A stretch of DNA of 55,933 nucleotides, from NCBI GenBank assembly GCA_937923575.1, contig CALDUL010000096.1, forward strand, positions 1-55,933, read 5' to 3'. The position numbers and the translations under genes are program-made. Shown piece after piece: positions 2,597 to 8,921 of the stretch (its first letter is position 1; every line of letters starts with the position of its first letter). This stretch comes from an uncultured Algimonas sp. (GTDB lineage: Bacteria; Pseudomonadota; Alphaproteobacteria; Caulobacterales; Maricaulaceae). The notes under the pieces were generated by a model. It was given only the letters and a program-made list of their open reading frames with translations. It was not told the DNA's origin and made no database searches.

Positions 2597-4207
2597 TCAT
2601 GCTTTTGATAGGTGACGTTCCGCATCCGCGTCCCAGCGCAGGCCGTGGCGGGCGAGATATTTCTTGAGGCGGTCGGCGTCGTTTGTGGATTTGCGCTGTG
2701 TGCGGGAGACGGAGAAGAGCGTGCGTCCCGCCTCGGACAGGCTGCGGGAGGCCGCGCAAACTCGGATTGCGCCCGCGAGCGACGGGCGGTCGAAAGGGTC
2801 GACGGCCTGCAGCGCATCGCGTCCCAGCGTCTCCACCAATAATGCCTCATCGGGATCGCTAGCCGCCAGACGCCAATTGCGGCGCAGGCGCTCGATCTCC
2901 CGCTCCACGGTCACGCGGTCGATTCGCGCACCCGTGGTGAAGGTGCATAGGCGTGTGACTGAGGCGGAGAGATCGCGGAAGTTGGCTGACCAGGCCGCTT
3001 CGGGCGAGGTCGCGAAAGAGAGATAGGCCGCCCTCGCCTCCTTGTTGAACGTCACGCGGCGACCCTCTCGGTCGGCAAAGCGCGACAGTTCGAAGTCGAG
3101 ATTGGGCGCGATGTCCTCGCGCCGCTCCGCCAGACCCGGCAGGTCGTAGCGCCACATGTCGATGCGCGCGAGCAGGTCTTCGCGGAAAGCGCCGTCCGCC
3201 ACCGCTTCCGTCAGGTCCACCGTCGTGCCCGCGATGAGCTGGAAGTCGGAGCGGACCTCCTCGTCCGCGCCGAGCGGGTAGAACGCCCCGTCTTCCACCG
3301 CGCCCAAGATCATCGCCTGTTCGTCCAGCCCCAGCGCTTCGATCTCGTCCAGGAAGACCAGCCCCTTGTCGGCCGCGCGCAATAGCCCCGCCCGGTCCTT
3401 GGTCGCGCCGTGGAAGGCGCCGCGGCGGTGTCCGAACAGTGCGCTCATCGCACCCTCGCCCCGAAGTGTGGCGCAGTTGATGGCGACATACTCACCGCGG
3501 ATCTGATTGCGGCGGCGTTTGAGGTCAAAGATCGCGCGCGCCAGACGCGACTTGCCTGCACCTGTCGGACCAGCAAGCAGGACCGGGTTGGTCGTGCGGA
3601 TGGCGACCTCCTCTATCTCCTCTATCATCGCGTTGAAGGCGGCGTTGTCGGTCTTGATGCCGGACTTCAGGAAGGATGTGTCGTCCACCCGCAGATCCGA
3701 CATGCGATCGGCCAAGCGGTCATAGCGCGACAGGTCGAGGTCGAGCACGCTGAGCTGGCCTATATCTGCCTTCTTTCGCTGCGGCGGCGGGGAAAGCTGC
3801 AGAATGCGCGCGGGCATGAAGCGCGCTTCGGCCAGCAGGAACAGGCTGATCTGAGCCACATGTGTGCCCGTCGTGATGTGGAGCAGATAGTCTTCCGCAT
3901 CCGTGTCGAAGCGGTAGAGCTCCGCCCAATCAAGCAGCGCGCCGTAGACCTCCTCCAGGTCCCACGGATCGTCGATGGCGAGCGCGTTGAGCACAACCTC
4001 GGTCTGCGGTGAGATCAGCGCGATGTCCGCGACGAGCTGATCCGCAATGCGGTGGTAGCGCGGGTCAAGAAACAGCTCGAAGCGGTCCACCGCCATGTCC
4101 GGCTGTCGGCATACATCGATAGTCGGCCGCCAGCGCTCCCAGCGGTCGGGCCGTGTACCGCTATCGAGCTTGGTCCCGATGAAGCCAATGACGACGTTGC
4201 GTTTCAT
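2597..4207 (-). CDS. rtcR: RNA-repair operon regulator RtcR (CARF + AAA+ + HTH)
   Basis: A 536-residue bacterial enhancer-binding protein close in length to E. coli RtcR. Residues 1 to about 180 are the RtcR-type CARF sensor (start MKRNVVIGFIGTK, with DYLLHITTGTH in the core), which in characterised RtcR recognises RNA ends. The AAA+ domain has Walker A GPTGAGKS (213-220) and Walker B LVFLDE; the C-terminus is the RtcR-type DNA-binding region. The loop that contacts sigma54, normally GAFTGA, reads GAFHGA here (residues 263-268, bases 3404-3421). The ATG at 4207 is chosen over an in-frame codon at 4303 because AAAGGAT lies just upstream and the family starts there. Divergent from ro60, as in known rtc loci, so it likely controls that operon. 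Confidence 0.93.
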   Translation of the reverse strand: MKRNVVIGFIGTKLDSGTRPDRWERWRPTIDVCRQPDMAVDRFELFLDPRYHRIADQLVADIALISPQTEVVLNALAIDDPWDLEEVYGALLDWAELYRFDTDAEDYLLHITTGTHVAQISLFLLAEARFMPARILQLSPPPQRKKADIGQLSVLDLDLSRYDRLADRMSDLRVDDTSFLKSGIKTDNAAFNAMIEEIEEVAIRTTNPVLLAGPTGAGKSRLARAIFDLKRRRNQIRGEYVAINCATLRGEGAMSALFGHRRGAFHGATKDRAGLLRAADKGLVFLDEIEALGLDEQAMILGAVEDGAFYPLGADEEVRSDFQLIAGTTVDLTEAVADGAFREDLLARIDMWRYDLPGLAERREDIAPNLDFELSRFADREGRRVTFNKEARAAYLSFATSPEAAWSANFRDLSASVTRLCTFTTGARIDRVTVEREIERLRRNWRLAASDPDEALLVETLGRDALQAVDPFDRPSLAGAIRVCAASRSLSEAGRTLFSVSRTQRKSTNDADRLKKYLARHGLRWDADAERHLSKA

Positions 4208-4271
4208 ATTTATCCTTTGAGATAAATCAATCGTATTGTATATAGACATGTGGAGAGAAGCAGAGGCAAGA

Positions 4272-4300
4272 TTGACCGATCCGACCGCGGTTTCTATAAA
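4272..4300 (+). promoter_or_regulatory. Sigma70-like promoter upstream of ro60
   Basis: TTGACC at 4272-4277 and TATAAA at 4295-4300 are separated by 17 bases, one mismatch each from the consensus hexamers. It sits 109 bases before the ro60 start. I looked on both strands of 4208-4408 for the GG-N10-GC core of a -24/-12 promoter, expected for an RtcR target, and did not find one. Confidence 0.5.
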
Positions 4301-4408
4301 CAATCTTTGTTTTTCAGTTCTCTACCGATTTCCAGCCAAATAGTTTTTCCACCGCTCGCCAGCTCCGTCATCTTGATCTCACAACTCGAGAAGAGATGAG
4401 AGACCATC

Positions 4409-5998
4409 ATGGCGAACAAATCCGTGTTTGCATCAACGTTTGGAAAGCTGCTCCCCGCGACGGATGCGGTGAACCGCGAGGGCGCCCCTGCCTACCAACT
4501 GTCCCCGCGCGATGCGCTGGCGCAGCTGGCGGTGACGGGGTGCTTTAACGGCACGCTCTACGCCTCCGCCGGGGAGCAGCTGGACGAGACCCTGCGTCTG
4601 GCGAAAGCTTGCGATCCCGAGTTCGTGGCGAAGACGGCAGCCTATGCCCGCTCCGCCGGGATGAAGGACATGCCTGCTTTGCTCGCCGCGCATCTTTGCG
4701 TGGCGCGTGACGGCGAGGCGCAAGCTCCGTCCGTGATGGGCGCGACATTTGCCTCCGTGATCGACAACGGCAAGATGCTCCGCAATTTCGTGCAGATGCT
4801 GCGCTCGGGTGTGGTGGGACGCAAGTCCCTGGGCACGGCGCCCAAGCGGCTCGTCCAGCGTTGGCTCGTCAATGCGTCCGACGCGCAGCTCATCCGCGCC
4901 ATGGTCGGCACCTCGCCTTCGCTGGCGGATGTGATCAAGATGGTTCACCCCAAGCCGGACACGGCCGAGCGGGACGCCTTCTTCGCCTACATCCTCGGCA
5001 AGGATCACGATGCAAGCTTGCTGCCCGACGCGATCCGTGCGTTCGAAGCGTTCAGGGCCGATCGTTCGCAACCCGTGCCGGATGTCCCGTTCCAGATGCT
5101 CACCGCGCTGGAGCTGGGGGCCACGCACTGGCTGCGGCTCGCCCAGCGGGGCGGGTGGCACTTTGTGCGGATGAACATCGCGACGCTCAAGCGTCACGGC
5201 GTGTTCGAGCTGGAAGGCGCGACCGCCATGATCGCGGAGCGCCTGATCGACTCGGACGCCATCGCCCGCTCGCGCGTCATGCCCTATCAGGTCATGACGT
5301 CGTGGACGGCGGCGAAGAATTGCGGTGCGCCGCAGGAGATCGTCAACGCCTTGGAGATCGCGATGGATGTCGCGCTCGCCAATGTGCCCTCGCTGGACGG
5401 CCTTAACATCGCCATCTGCCCGGACGTGTCCGGATCGATGGGTTCGCCCGTGACGGGGTTCCGCCGCGGTTCGACCACGGCGGTGCGCTGTGTCGATGTG
5501 GCGGCTCTGTTTGCAACGGCGCTGGCCCGCCCGAACCCGACGGCGCGTGTGCTGCCGTTCGACACCGAAGTGCGGACGCTCGATTTTGAAGTGGACGCGT
5601 CGGTGATGGACAATGCGCAAGTGCTGGCCGCCGCCTGCGGTGGCGGAACGTCCTGCGGCAAGCCTGTGGCGGAACTGGTGGCCCAGCGTCGCCCGGTCGA
5701 TCTGGTGGTGATGATCTCGGACAACCAGTCCTGGATCAATGCGGACCAGTCGCAGCGTTGGGCGCGCGGTACGGACCTGATGGCGCAGTGGCAAAAGCTG
5801 CGCGCCCGCAATCAGGGCGCGAAGCTGATCTGCTGGGACATCCAGCCGGGCGCCACGGTTCAAGCCATGAACCGGGCGGACATCCTGAATGTCGGCGGCG
5901 TGTCGGACAAAGTGTTCGACGCCATCGCAGCATTCGCCAAGGGTCCAACCGGCTCCTTCGCGGACATCATCGAAGCGACGCCGATCGTGCGTCACTGA
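4409..5998 (+). CDS. Ro60/Rsr-type TROVE and vWA domain RNA-binding protein
   Basis: A 529-residue bacterial Ro60 orthologue. The N-terminal ~330 residues are the alpha-helical TROVE repeat ring, which in characterised Ro proteins binds misfolded RNA ends in its hole and Y RNA on its outer face. The C-terminal part is a von Willebrand A domain with the MIDAS signature DVSGSMG (339-345), a GGGTS loop and a later ISDNQ aspartate. In Deinococcus and Salmonella, Rsr with Y RNA works with PNPase in RNA degradation. It is the first gene of ro60 - three Y-like RNAs - rtcB - rtcA and divergent from rtcR. A GAGAGACC stretch before the ATG at 4409 can serve as a ribosome site. Confidence 0.92.
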   Translation: MANKSVFASTFGKLLPATDAVNREGAPAYQLSPRDALAQLAVTGCFNGTLYASAGEQLDETLRLAKACDPEFVAKTAAYARSAGMKDMPALLAAHLCVARDGEAQAPSVMGATFASVIDNGKMLRNFVQMLRSGVVGRKSLGTAPKRLVQRWLVNASDAQLIRAMVGTSPSLADVIKMVHPKPDTAERDAFFAYILGKDHDASLLPDAIRAFEAFRADRSQPVPDVPFQMLTALELGATHWLRLAQRGGWHFVRMNIATLKRHGVFELEGATAMIAERLIDSDAIARSRVMPYQVMTSWTAAKNCGAPQEIVNALEIAMDVALANVPSLDGLNIAICPDVSGSMGSPVTGFRRGSTTAVRCVDVAALFATALARPNPTARVLPFDTEVRTLDFEVDASVMDNAQVLAAACGGGTSCGKPVAELVAQRRPVDLVVMISDNQSWINADQSQRWARGTDLMAQWQKLRARNQGAKLICWDIQPGATVQAMNRADILNVGGVSDKVFDAIAAFAKGPTGSFADIIEATPIVRH

Positions 5999-6066: not shown

Positions 6067-6182
6067 GCGAAGGGCGAATGCCGGCGTGACTACATTGGTT
6101 AGCCTTTTTGGCTCGGGGTTCAATTCCCCGCTTTCCCACCAGCTGGTGGGATCGCTGTCACGTCACCCTTGTCGCCAATCGC
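6067..6182 (+). ncRNA. Y-RNA-like RNA, copy A (reduced tRNA-like module)
   Basis: First of three tandem units. The closing stem pairs GCGA/TCGC (6067-6070, 6179-6182) and GGCGA/TCGCC (6073-6077, 6172-6176); an inner helix pairs CGTGAC (6085-6090) with GTCACG (6157-6162). It shares with the other copies the 5' block GGCGAATGC (6073), ACTACAT (6089) and the 3' block TTGTCGCC (6169), the expected Ro-binding-type stem. The module contains a hairpin AGCC-T5-GGCT (6101-6113), a tRNA-like T-arm CGGGG-TTCAATT-CCCCG (6114-6130), and a 7-bp acceptor-like hairpin closed by AGCT (6134-6151). No D-arm is seen, so this copy is reduced or diverged. Strand follows the flanking genes and the T-loop consensus. 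Confidence 0.8.
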
Positions 6183-6192
6183 ATCAGGACAA

Positions 6193-6316
6193 TCCCGGCG
6201 AATGCCGTGGAGACTACATCGTAGCGGAGGTCGCGGGTTCGAATCCCGCTGGCGGCAACGCCCATGGCTCAGAGGTCAGAGCACCGTTTTCGTCTCCTCA
6301 GATTTTGTCGCCGGGA
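6193..6316 (+). ncRNA. Y-RNA-like RNA, copy B (permuted tRNA mimic)
   Basis: The outer stem TCCCGGCGA/TCGCCGGGA (6193-6201, 6308-6316) is a perfect 9 bp; the inner stem GGAGAC/GTCTCC (6209-6214, 6292-6297) is a perfect 6 bp. Inside, in order: T-arm GCGGG-TTCGAAT-CCCGC (6233-6249) with a canonical T-loop; a short acceptor-like stem GGCG/CGCC closed by the GNRA tetraloop GCAA (6251-6262); a D-arm GCTC-AGAGGTCA-GAGC (6267-6282). The T-arm precedes the D-arm, so the tRNA elbow is circularly permuted and has no free CCA end. This matches the general design known for bacterial YrlA RNAs, where the tRNA-like module hangs on the Y stem. Confidence 0.88.
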
Positions 6317-6324
6317 CTGGTCAA

Positions 6325-6468
6325 CGCTCATGGCGAATGCTGCGGGAGACTACATTTAATACTGGTGACGCGGGTTCGAATCCCGCCGCTCTCGTCACGG
6401 GAAACCGAACGAGGCGTAGCTCAGCCCGGTAGAGCACAGCTGTCTCCCCACCCCTTGTCGCCCGAGCG
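6325..6468 (+). ncRNA. Y-RNA-like RNA, copy C (permuted tRNA mimic)
   Basis: Closing stems CGCTC/GAGCG (6325-6329, 6464-6468) and GGCGA/TCGCC (6332-6336, 6458-6462); inner stem GGGAGAC/GTCTCCC (6344-6350, 6442-6448). The T-arm GCGGG-TTCGAAT-CCCGC (6370-6386) is identical to that of copy B. The acceptor-like arm pairs CGC and CTCGT with ACGAG and GCG around a bulged T, capped by CGG-GAAA-CCG, again a GNRA tetraloop (6387-6416). The D-arm GCTC-AGCCCGGTA-GAGC (6419-6435) has the GG expected in a D-loop. The acceptor sequence differs from copy B while the fold is kept, which argues for selection on structure. It ends 29 bases before rtcB. Confidence 0.9.
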
Positions 6469-6497: not shown

Positions 6498-7754
6498 ATG
6501 GAAAACGAATTCGACACCACTCTGCACGCCGCCAATGAGGGCTATGACGTCATGCACAACGATCACGGCGTGCCCGTGAAGATCTGGGCGCGCGGCGTGC
6601 CCGTCGACGAGCGCGCGCGCGAGCAGTTGCTCCGCGCCGCCTCCATGCCGTTCATTCACAAGCACATCGCCGTCATGCCCGACGTCCATGTCGGGCTCGG
6701 CGCGACGATCGGCTCGGTCATCCCGACGAAGAAAGCGATCATCCCGGCCGCTGTCGGCGTGGATATCGGCTGCGGGATGATGGCATGTCGCACGACCCTC
6801 ACGGCCGTTGACCTGCCCGACGATCTGAAGGGTCTTCGGTCCGCCATCGAGCGCGCCGTGCCGCATGGCCGTTCGGCCAGCCGGCGTGGCCGCGACAAGG
6901 GCTCCTGGGGCGAAGCGCCCGAGACGTCGGTGGCCGCCTGGGCCGGCATTTCGGACCGCTTCGACGTGCTCTGCGACAAGCATCCCGTGCTTCGCAAGAC
7001 CAACAACCTGAAGCATCTCGGTACGCTGGGCACGGGCAACCACTTTGTGGAAGTCTGCCTGGATGGGGAGGACCGCGTCTGGTTCATGCTCCATTCCGGC
7101 TCGCGCGGGGTGGGCAACCGGATCGGTCGCTACTTCATCGAGCTGGCGAAGCGCGACATGGAAAAGTGGTTTATCAACCTGCCCGACCGTGACCTCGCCT
7201 ATTTCGCCGAAGGGACGGATCATTTCGACGACTATGTCGAAGCGGTCGAGTGGGGTCAGGACTTCGCCTTTCGCAATCGGGCCGTGATGATGCAGAACGT
7301 CATCCGGGCCGCGCGCACGGTGATCGCCAAGCCGTTCGACGCCGAGGTCGAAGCCGTCAACTGCCACCACAACTACGTAGAACGGGAGAATCACTTCGGC
7401 GAAAATGTCTACGTCACGCGAAAAGGCGCCGTGCGCGCGCGCAAGGGTGACATGGGCATCATTCCGGGCTCGATGGGGACACGCTCCTACATCGTACGCG
7501 GGCTCGGCAATGAGCAGTCCTTCCACTCGTGCAGCCACGGTGCCGGACGGGTGATGAGCCGGACGCAGGCGCGCAAGGAGGTCTCCATGGAGGAGCACCT
7601 CATCGCCGTTGGTCACGTGGAGTGCCGCCGCGACGCCGCTGTGCTCGACGAGACGCCGTCCGCCTACAAGTCCATCGACGCCGTGATGGAGGCGCAGAAG
7701 GACTTGGTGGAAGTCGTGCACACGCTGCGTCAGGTGGTGTGCGTGAAGGGCTGA
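6498..7754 (+). CDS. rtcB: RNA-splicing ligase RtcB
   Basis: A 418-residue RtcB, which seals RNA 2',3'-cyclic-phosphate or 3'-phosphate ends to 5'-OH ends using GTP and Mn2+. The metal and guanylate pocket motifs are visible: PDVHVG, DIGCGM, GTGNHFVEV, and the nucleotidyl-acceptor histidine in SHGAGR (about residue 347). An AGGAC ribosome site precedes the ATG at 6498. It follows directly on the Y-like RNAs, so the three RNAs are probably processed from the same transcript or driven from an internal promoter. Ligase, cyclase and Ro protein together form an RNA-end repair or triage system. Confidence 0.95.
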   Translation: MENEFDTTLHAANEGYDVMHNDHGVPVKIWARGVPVDERAREQLLRAASMPFIHKHIAVMPDVHVGLGATIGSVIPTKKAIIPAAVGVDIGCGMMACRTTLTAVDLPDDLKGLRSAIERAVPHGRSASRRGRDKGSWGEAPETSVAAWAGISDRFDVLCDKHPVLRKTNNLKHLGTLGTGNHFVEVCLDGEDRVWFMLHSGSRGVGNRIGRYFIELAKRDMEKWFINLPDRDLAYFAEGTDHFDDYVEAVEWGQDFAFRNRAVMMQNVIRAARTVIAKPFDAEVEAVNCHHNYVERENHFGENVYVTRKGAVRARKGDMGIIPGSMGTRSYIVRGLGNEQSFHSCSHGAGRVMSRTQARKEVSMEEHLIAVGHVECRRDAAVLDETPSAYKSIDAVMEAQKDLVEVVHTLRQVVCVKG

Positions 7755-7865
7755 ACCGAAGAATTGATCCGGTGGATCAATTCGCGGTTCAGTGGAGCCA
7801 GCGCGCAAGCGCTGTCGTTGGCTCCCATCTCGATTAAATCGACGGACCGCCCTCGCTGGCGGTCC
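7751..7865 (+). other. Structured rtcB-rtcA spacer: four consecutive hairpins
   Basis: Four inverted repeats fill the 132-base spacer. (1) CTGAACCG and GAATTGATCC pair with GGATCAATTC and CGGTTCAG (7751-7792) around GGT, swallowing the rtcB stop codon. (2) GGAGCCA/TGGCTCC encloses AGCGC-GCAA-GCGCT with a GNRA loop (7794-7825). (3) TCGATT-A-AATCGA (about 7830-7842). (4) GGACCGCC/GGCGGTCC with a 6-base loop followed by GTTTC (7844-7865). The last could terminate weakly. The set may control rtcA expression, be an RNA element of the repair system, or be a REP-like repeat. Confidence 0.6.
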
Positions 7866-7886: not shown

Positions 7887-8921
7887 ATGATCACCATTGA
7901 TGCATCCCTGGGCGAAGGCGGCGGGCAGGTTCTACGCACGGCCATTTCGCTATCGTCTATTACCGGCAAAGCCGTAACGCTGGAGGGTATCCGCGGCGGG
8001 CGGTCCAAACCCGGCCTGATGCGCCAACACCTGACCGGCGTGCGCGCGGCCGCGCAGATCACGGGCGCGAAGACGGACGGCGCCGCGCTGAGATCCCAGA
8101 CGCTGGTGTTCGAGCCCGGCCCGATCCAACCCGGCGATTACGAAGTCGCGGTCGGCACGGCCGGCTCGACCGTTCTCGTCGCGCAGACCGTGCTGCCGAT
8201 CCTCGCTTTTGCGGACGCTCCGTCCAGCCTCACCGTCTCTGGCGGGACGCATGTGAAGTGGTCGCCGAGTTTCGATTTCTTCCACCAGAGCTTTCTGCCG
8301 CAAGTCAATGCGATGGGGCTGAGCGCGAGCGCCGAGCTGATCGCGCACGGCTTCTATCCGGCGGGCGGCGGGACGATCCGCGTGGATGTGCAGCCCTGGA
8401 CCGAAACGCGCGGGCTGGAGCTGGTGGACCGCGGCGAGAGCGAGGGCCTGCATGCCGAGGTGCTGCTGGCCCATGTCAAACCCTCGGTCGGTACGCGCGA
8501 GCTGGATATGCTGGAGCGACGGCTGACCTTGGCCTCACAGGACCTGCGCAACGTCGACGCGGCGGGCGGCGGCAATGCGCTGACCGTGGCCGCGCGCTTT
8601 GCCAATATCGACATGCTTTTTACCGGCCTTGGCGAGCGCGGCGTGAAGGCGGAATCTGTCGCGCGCAGCGTGGCCGACCGCGTGCGCCGCTATGTCGGCG
8701 GTACGGCCTGCGCCGAGGAATATCTGGCGGATCAACTTTTGCTGCCCTGCGCGCTCGCCGCCCTGTCCGGGCACAGCTCACGCTTTACCGCGAGCGAGAT
8801 CAGCCTGCACACGCGCACCAATATCGACATTATTCGCGCCTTTCTGCGGGTCGATATCGACCTGCATCAGACCGATCGCACGGTATGGGAGATCACGGTG
8901 AAGCCTTCCAAGGCGGACTAG
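7887..8921 (+). CDS. rtcA: RNA 3'-terminal phosphate cyclase RtcA
   Basis: A 344-residue cyclase converting RNA 3'-phosphates to 2',3'-cyclic phosphates through an AMP intermediate, which produces substrates usable by RtcB. It begins with the family motif GEGGGQVLRTA, has the central HVKWSPSFDF segment and ends with EYLADQLLLP and the catalytic histidine in SLHTRTNID (about residue 308, near the position of His309 in E. coli RtcA). It is separated from rtcB by 132 structured bases and converges on the efflux gene with a one-base gap, so it is the last gene of the repair operon. Confidence 0.95.
   Translation: MITIDASLGEGGGQVLRTAISLSSITGKAVTLEGIRGGRSKPGLMRQHLTGVRAAAQITGAKTDGAALRSQTLVFEPGPIQPGDYEVAVGTAGSTVLVAQTVLPILAFADAPSSLTVSGGTHVKWSPSFDFFHQSFLPQVNAMGLSASAELIAHGFYPAGGGTIRVDVQPWTETRGLELVDRGESEGLHAEVLLAHVKPSVGTRELDMLERRLTLASQDLRNVDAAGGGNALTVAARFANIDMLFTGLGERGVKAESVARSVADRVRRYVGGTACAEEYLADQLLLPCALAALSGHSSRFTASEISLHTRTNIDIIRAFLRVDIDLHQTDRTVWEITVKPSKAD

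Follow-up and report, generated by a model that had tools for sequence, protein, structure and literature searches.

YrlA-type Y RNAs in an RNA-repair operon of an uncultured Algimonas and evidence for a second circular permutation of the tRNA body among their relatives

Between the genes for a Ro60-like protein and an RNA ligase, a 55,933-nucleotide stretch of DNA from an uncultured Algimonas sp. (the window; its source is a 2.58-Mb genome assembly of 122 contigs) carries three small RNA genes, copies A, B and C, with tRNA-like arms. In what way do such RNAs attach a tRNA body to the Ro60-like protein Rsr, and do their relatives all do it in the same way?

The Y RNAs of the window and their operon

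The features of the locus, with their best model scores, are the following.

2597..4303, minus strand: rtcR, sigma-54 activator with an RtcR/CARF domain (PF06956 251.9 bits, PF00158 148.6 bits); the first codons of the ORF may be untranslated
4409..5998, plus strand: rsr, Ro60-like protein (TROVE/vWA; PF25045 vWA_Ro60 48.4 bits, cut-off 27.7)
6072..6177, plus strand: Y RNA copy A (RF02553 27.9 bits, E 5.8e-4; weaker than B and C)
6196..6313, plus strand: Y RNA copy B, YrlA type (RF02553 65.2 bits, E 1e-14)
6331..6463, plus strand: Y RNA copy C, YrlA type (RF02553 57.7 bits, E 1.5e-12)
6498..7754, plus strand: rtcB, RNA ligase (PF01139 434.3 bits)
7887..8921, plus strand: rtcA, RNA 3'-phosphate cyclase (PF01137 255.6 bits)

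The locus is the known rsr-Y RNA-rtcBA RNA-repair operon, with the three Y RNA copies placed between rsr and rtcB, rtcA next and rtcR divergent. In Salmonella the operon is rsr-yrlBA-rtcBA and is activated by tRNA damage via RtcR, as described in two reports (PMC7790460, PMC9879122). The rsr product is 50-56% identical to its relatives; it scores over the cut-off for vWA_Ro60 and, at 19.2 bits, under the cut-off of 23 for PF05731 TROVE. A search for a sigma-54 promoter upstream of rsr (4208-4408) gave no match, either with the pattern or with regular expressions, and shuffled sequence contains the pattern more often than the window does. ARAGORN found no tRNA gene in the window and called none of the Y RNAs as a linear tRNA, and tmRNA models reached only 12.8-14 bits there. 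Among 37 fetched regions of related genomes, Rsr, RtcB and RtcA occur together in five, and a distant Rsr was present in three others.

Copies B and C are almost certainly YrlA RNAs. A review (PMC8394870) ascribes to YrlA a tRNA-like domain that comprises D, T and acceptor arms, modification by DusA and TruB, binding to PNPase, and binding to Rsr through the basal stem; PMC11472068 shows that the Y RNA 6CU1 can be superposed on tRNAs if a circular permutation is allowed. Copies B and C share with YrlA (RF02553; Salmonella YrlA, PDB 6CU1) the order Ro stem, T arm, sealed acceptor and D arm, and likewise lie between rsr and rtcB, beside a Ro60 orthologue. Both match RF02553 over its full length and are probable members by model score and arm order, yet they stay just below its gathering score of 69 bits, as does copy A, and an Rfam search at gathering thresholds returned no family in the window.

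The inner Ro stem of copy B is formed by GGAGAC (6209-6214) and GTCTCC (6292-6297) and the outer one by 6197-6201 and 6308-6312. Within them lie a T arm (GCGGG-TTCGAAT-CCCGC, 6233-6249), an acceptor-like stem capped by GCAA (GGCG-GCAA-CGCC, 6251-6262) and a D arm (GCTC-AGAGGTCA-GAGC, 6267-6282). Copy C has a T arm with the same TTCGAAT loop (6370-6386), an acceptor-like stem (6387-6416) with an internal loop and a GAAA cap (6401-6404), and a D arm (GCTC-AGCCCGGTA-GAGC, 6419-6435). We read 6223-6227 and 6284-6288 of copy B as anticodon-stem strands making five pairs; copy C appears to have three such pairs only, and neither copy a canonical anticodon loop. In this anatomy each would be a tRNA body cut open in the anticodon arm, with a tetraloop sealing its acceptor ends and with its new ends joined to the Rsr-bound stem. 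The arm order, the T-loops, the D-arm stems and the two caps are as the initial annotation had given them, and its view of B and C as circularly permuted tRNA mimics with a sealed acceptor end is supported. Presenting a tRNA-like module to PNPase, one of the roles it had suggested, is stated for YrlA in PMC8394870. It had counted two tandem Y-like RNAs: B and C are Y-like by the Rfam YrlA model, while the tandem copies number three.

The same annotation had seen selection on shape in the stems and had named a lack of compensatory changes as grounds for abandoning the structure. In 30 YrlA-type RNAs picked by hand, B and C among them, RNAalifold recovered the Ro stems, T arm, acceptor and D arm with two-sided changes in 18 of 29 predicted pairs, mostly in the acceptor stem, the D arm being nearly invariant. 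The stems covary, and the proposed structure survived. A covariance model of 30 YrlA-type RNAs (R2) gave 92.9 bits for copy B and 93.9 bits for copy C, both of which were in its training set. As permuted tRNA mimics B and C are not new: YrlA is in Rfam and its circular permutation is in print. The annotation did not see a second permutation, nor an anticodon arm that is common in relatives.

The D-type Y RNAs of related loci

From an alignment of six Rsr proteins we arrived at 80 named bacterial loci and 34 viral contigs; at least 588 bacterial stretches were candidates, 550 encode a relative, and the best 80 of these 550 were used. A Ro-stem pattern yielded 348 unique Y RNAs from 99 loci, of which 297 are bacterial (window included) and 51 viral, against 11 hits in 1.71 Mb of single-base shuffles of the 80 loci. 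A stricter pattern found 280 (two duplicate loci dropped), with one hit in 1.70 Mb of shuffled sequence. A parser sorted the 297 bacterial Y RNAs into 118 of YrlA type, 33 of a D type with an anticodon arm, 35 of D type without one, 24 with a T arm that stayed unsorted and 87 without a T arm; these counts are heuristic, the parser having known faults such as a shifted D stem taken in copy B, and some long stretches in the class list are false (e.g. L033:6016, L164, L181).

When 193 inserts of at least 45 bases were circularised (doubled head to tail), ARAGORN called a tRNA in 66 of them, compared to two in native order and none in ten shuffled insert sets; the set left out 19 of 267 unique RNAs (longer than 175 bases or unsplit) and 55 with shorter inserts. 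Copy C was called in this way, and A and B were not among the hits. By folding, GNRA loops cap the acceptor stem in 43 of 118 YrlA-type and 15 of 66 D-type RNAs and close 12 of 33 D-type anticodon arms, so this cap is common and not universal.

Several other forms were noted among the candidates. An extra GNRA-capped hairpin lies between the D arm and the Ro stem in the YrlA-type RNAs L074:6791, L082:6617, L100:3766 and L111:6770; a hairpin at this place occurs in 14 YrlA-class RNAs in all, two of them viral (L149:7007 and 7648). The inserts of L090:4823, L140:4847 and L136:4877, and those of L073:6615 and L075:6687, look conserved and have no T arm; an insert of this T-arm-less kind from Acidobacteria is GGTGATCCTAAGCTGTTCATGCGC. 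The viral contigs L156, L157 and L159 hold arrays of short candidate Y RNAs of 57-64 bases with little or no insert.

The D-type insert runs from the D-loop GG through the 3' D strand, anticodon arm, variable region, T arm and capped acceptor stem to two bases and the 5' D strand. Unlike YrlA (RF02553), these RNAs carry the Ro stem in the D loop and not in the anticodon arm, and their D strands stand at opposite ends of the insert; the D arm as a hairpin after the acceptor, a feature of YrlA, was not found in the D-type RNAs of relatives. We aligned 22 of them (21 taken by the parser and L082 by eye) without structure. Given no structure, RNAalifold returned the Ro stems, a D stem across the insert, the T stem and, one base beyond the D stem, an anticodon stem, with two-sided changes in 19 of 26 pairs. 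Paired cells made up 97.3%, a figure that is partly built in because the parser, which chose most of the 22, demands at least 3/4 D-stem pairs. Two-sided cells numbered 79, compared to 19.3 in shuffles (0/500) and 4-14 with partners slid; in this count only 2/4 pairs of the D stem had two-sided changes, with 4/5 in the T stem and 3/3 in the anticodon stem.

Thirteen type II members of the D type, with GGTAGACGC...TGGCGGAA, which we take to be tRNA-Leu-like, showed the D stem, T stem and acceptor, and 11 of their 23 pairs changed on both sides. Their D stem is invariant, and RNAalifold missed the inner Ro stem and drew a CUAC/GUAG hairpin. Single-sequence folding gave the D-loop form for L088:7481 (z -4.74) and for the type II RNA L069:6825 (z -2.60), the latter with anticodon, variable, T and acceptor arms present; in the lowest-energy fold of L112:5345 (z -4.04) a clean D stem was not seen.

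A covariance model of the 22 RNAs (R1) gave 40 matches of at least 70 bits, spread over 34 of 84 sources, with 18 of the matches outside the training set and D-type on reading; the titles matched include Mesorhizobium, Variovorax, Qipengyuania, Labrys, Massilia and Acidobacteria. The 70-bit line was set after the scores were seen and is thin, since the best YrlA-type RNA reached 69.0 bits; the D-type RNA L103:6842 scored 68.9 bits and type II members 49-65. On nine sources R2 gave YrlA-type RNAs 78-121 bits and all others at most 54. None of 17 aligned D-type RNAs (12 loci) reached the gathering level of any Rfam family. Below gathering, five D-type RNAs from two stretches were matched by RF02553 with 26-36 bits, so that they are recognisable as distant relatives of YrlA. 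We hold it to be highly probable, judging from sequence and covariation, that two permutations exist.

Where copy A belongs is less clear-cut. It has a Ro stem, a D-loop-like TTGGT (6095-6099), a clear T arm (CGGGG-TTCAATT-CCCCG, 6114-6130) and, three bases beyond the T stem, a clear, capped acceptor-like stem (TCCCACC-AGCT-GGTGGGA, 6134-6151). If the possible D strands TAGC (3', 6100-6103) and GCTG (5', 6154-6157) pair across the insert, copy A may be a reduced D-loop form. Its lowest-energy fold has a different hairpin where that stem would lie, and the D-type and YrlA-type models tie on it (52.3 vs 52.1 bits). Its folding-energy z of -4.16 is stronger than the weak values of B (-1.99) and C (-1.47). 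Copy A is the first Y RNA after rsr, as is YrlB in the Salmonella order rsr-yrlB-yrlA given in PMC9879122.

Two RNAs of the viral contig L149, which has ten Y RNA pattern hits, were candidates for a third permutation. L149:7007-7143 and 7648-7784 have the order T, acceptor, D and anticodon arm, and ARAGORN reads both as tRNA when circularised; the third permutation was not seen in their single-sequence folds (z -1.56 and -1.97). A Ro stem in the variable region is only a lead.

Anticodon arms and operon tRNA genes

The class parser ignores the anticodon region, and we searched the YrlA-type RNAs for the canonical loop form YU-NNN-R-H. Of the 118 bacterial YrlA-type RNAs, 59 have such a loop between 17 and 11 bases ahead of the T stem, where a tRNA whose variable region has five bases would carry it; 12 other registers held 0-11 loops. 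The other half, to which B and C belong, lack it. The outer pairs 27-43, 28-42 and 29-41 all form in 75 of the 118 (null 13.6, maximum 26 of 1000). In 53 of the 59 RNAs with the loop, pairs 31-39 (AT, CG or GC) and 30-40 (GC, CG or TA) were found together at the 5' side of the insert (null 14.2, maximum 24 in 2000), which places the entry of the Ro stem in the 5' strand of the anticodon stem. When each group (genera or higher, hand-set from titles, remaining loci counted singly) was represented by a single RNA, the loop was present in 28 of 43 (other registers 0-5) and the two pairs occurred together in 29 of 33 (null 9.6, maximum 19 in 5000). In the lowest-energy fold of L131:3326 the anticodon hairpin was not seen. 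The Rfam consensus of YrlA has no anticodon hairpin, whereas such a hairpin is present in about half of the YrlA-type RNAs considered here.

The 59 loops carry 29 different triplets, which vary even within Variovorax. We considered whether the RNAs are copies of the tRNAs that their triplets name. With the triplet masked and the RNAs un-permuted, the nearest of 361 tRNAs from the fetched loci had the same anticodon in one of the 59 cases and the same amino acid in three (null 1.5 and 3.3). Their bodies do not fit their own triplets, and the YrlA-type RNAs are therefore not recent copies of the named isotypes.

These operons also carry tRNA genes. In 22 of the 80 loci (best 80 of 550) tRNA genes lie on the operon strand within the fetched flanks, and in all 80 there were 164 tRNA calls on that strand against three on the other, at least two of the calls being Y RNAs themselves (L078:2066 and L094:4522). 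The commonest were Asn(gtt) in 13 loci, Pro(tgg) in 12, His(gtg) in 10 and Gln(ttg) in 10, with Met(cat), Arg(acg) and Lys(ttt) also leading; several of these are classical targets of anticodon nucleases. Repair operons with such spare tRNAs include L070, L071, L072, L079, L094, L140 and L142. Y RNAs alternate with tRNA genes in L094 and L140; this, together with the operon-strand tRNAs, hints that the permuted Y RNAs may have originated across adjacent tRNA genes.

The D-type permutation and the anticodon arm were absent from Rfam release 15 and from the literature searched, which left out central YrlA papers, so that their novelty is provisional.

Possible roles of the arrays

B and C being almost certainly of YrlA type, we think it likely that the Y RNAs of these loci are arrays of tRNA bodies opened at two places and hung on Rsr. 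In the YrlA type the Ro stem enters the anticodon arm, and in about half of that type it sits in the 5' strand of the anticodon stem, leaving a paired anticodon arm with a canonical loop. In the D type it enters the D loop just before the GG; with the Ro stem there, the arms of anticodon and acceptor would be directed away from Rsr, and it follows from this anatomy that the tRNA body of the D type would be turned round on Rsr. A tRNA-like body in permuted order is likewise found in permuted tRNA genes and permuted tmRNA, and in both of them processing yields a chargeable end, whereas the acceptor strands of these Y RNAs stay joined.

For function we would give even odds to the following reading. 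Damage to tRNA would turn the operon on, the arrays would present the tRNA shape in different orientations to effectors that handle tRNA, and decay or repair of broken tRNA would be steered in this way. More tentatively, the arrays could be tRNAs opened at different places, the 5' anticodon-stem strand and the D loop, each hung on Rsr and sealed at the acceptor, and Rsr would thereby display the tRNA shape in several orientations. Damaging nucleases attack the parts of tRNA where these openings lie, and each RNA may represent one break. Such RNAs could have come from tandem tRNA genes of the same operon, the 3' part of one tRNA being combined with the 5' part of the next.

Other explanations fit part of the evidence. 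The Y RNAs might be decoys that compete with tRNAs for the anticodon nuclease that induces the operon, the constant loop frame with its changing triplets then being the mark of an arms race. Competitive inhibition by YrlA was raised by the authors of PMC7790460, who state that the role of Y RNAs on tRNA damage was not addressed; the many triplets in the canonical loops, their turnover within Variovorax and the spare tRNA genes of the 22 loci would suit such a contest. That study found no YrlA fragments, which makes YrlA no substrate of that nuclease. Half of the YrlA-type RNAs, B and C included, have no canonical loop to offer, and the D-type anticodon arm often ends in a GNRA tetraloop. We consider decoys unlikely. 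Less probable still is a repair platform in which opened tRNA bodies stand in for broken tRNA and recruit RtcB or RtcA. The opening sites, anticodon arm and D loop, would suit it, and both in the window and in five regions of related genomes the Y RNA genes adjoin rtcB and rtcA, but the partner of Rsr and YrlA named in PMC8394870 and PMC9879122 is PNPase, not RtcB or RtcA.

The possibility that tandem tRNA genes or tRNA remnants were read as permuted tRNAs was already disfavoured and we judge it very improbable. Models that ignore the Ro stem do pick up tandem tRNAs. Of 398 genomes of the phylum, 51 had an R1 match at E 1e-6 and four had one at 70 bits or more, and many of the E 1e-6 matches span only positions 24-107 without a Ro stem; we take these to be tandem tRNAs, the probable cause of part-length R1 matches at about 31-38 bits. 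Weak RF02553 matches at E 0.001 occur in 36 of 299 genomes of the source's order (four over the cut-off) and in 6 of 14 control genomes, and in several of the 37 fetched regions tandem tRNAs lie at the match. The RNAs considered here, however, carry both Ro stems, patterns for which are rare in shuffled sequence; YrlA-type and D-type RNAs both covary; and the window has no ARAGORN tRNA to be misread.

Taken alone, copies B and C are ordinary, and the interest lies in the second permutation and in the anticodon arm of their relatives. The known structure of YrlA shows a tRNA hung on Ro60 in one manner. Covariation supports a second permutation, in which the Ro stem sits at the elbow, and this would mean that evolution has varied the orientation of the tRNA on Rsr. 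Many YrlA RNAs also retain an anticodon arm, which prompts one to ask what recognises it.
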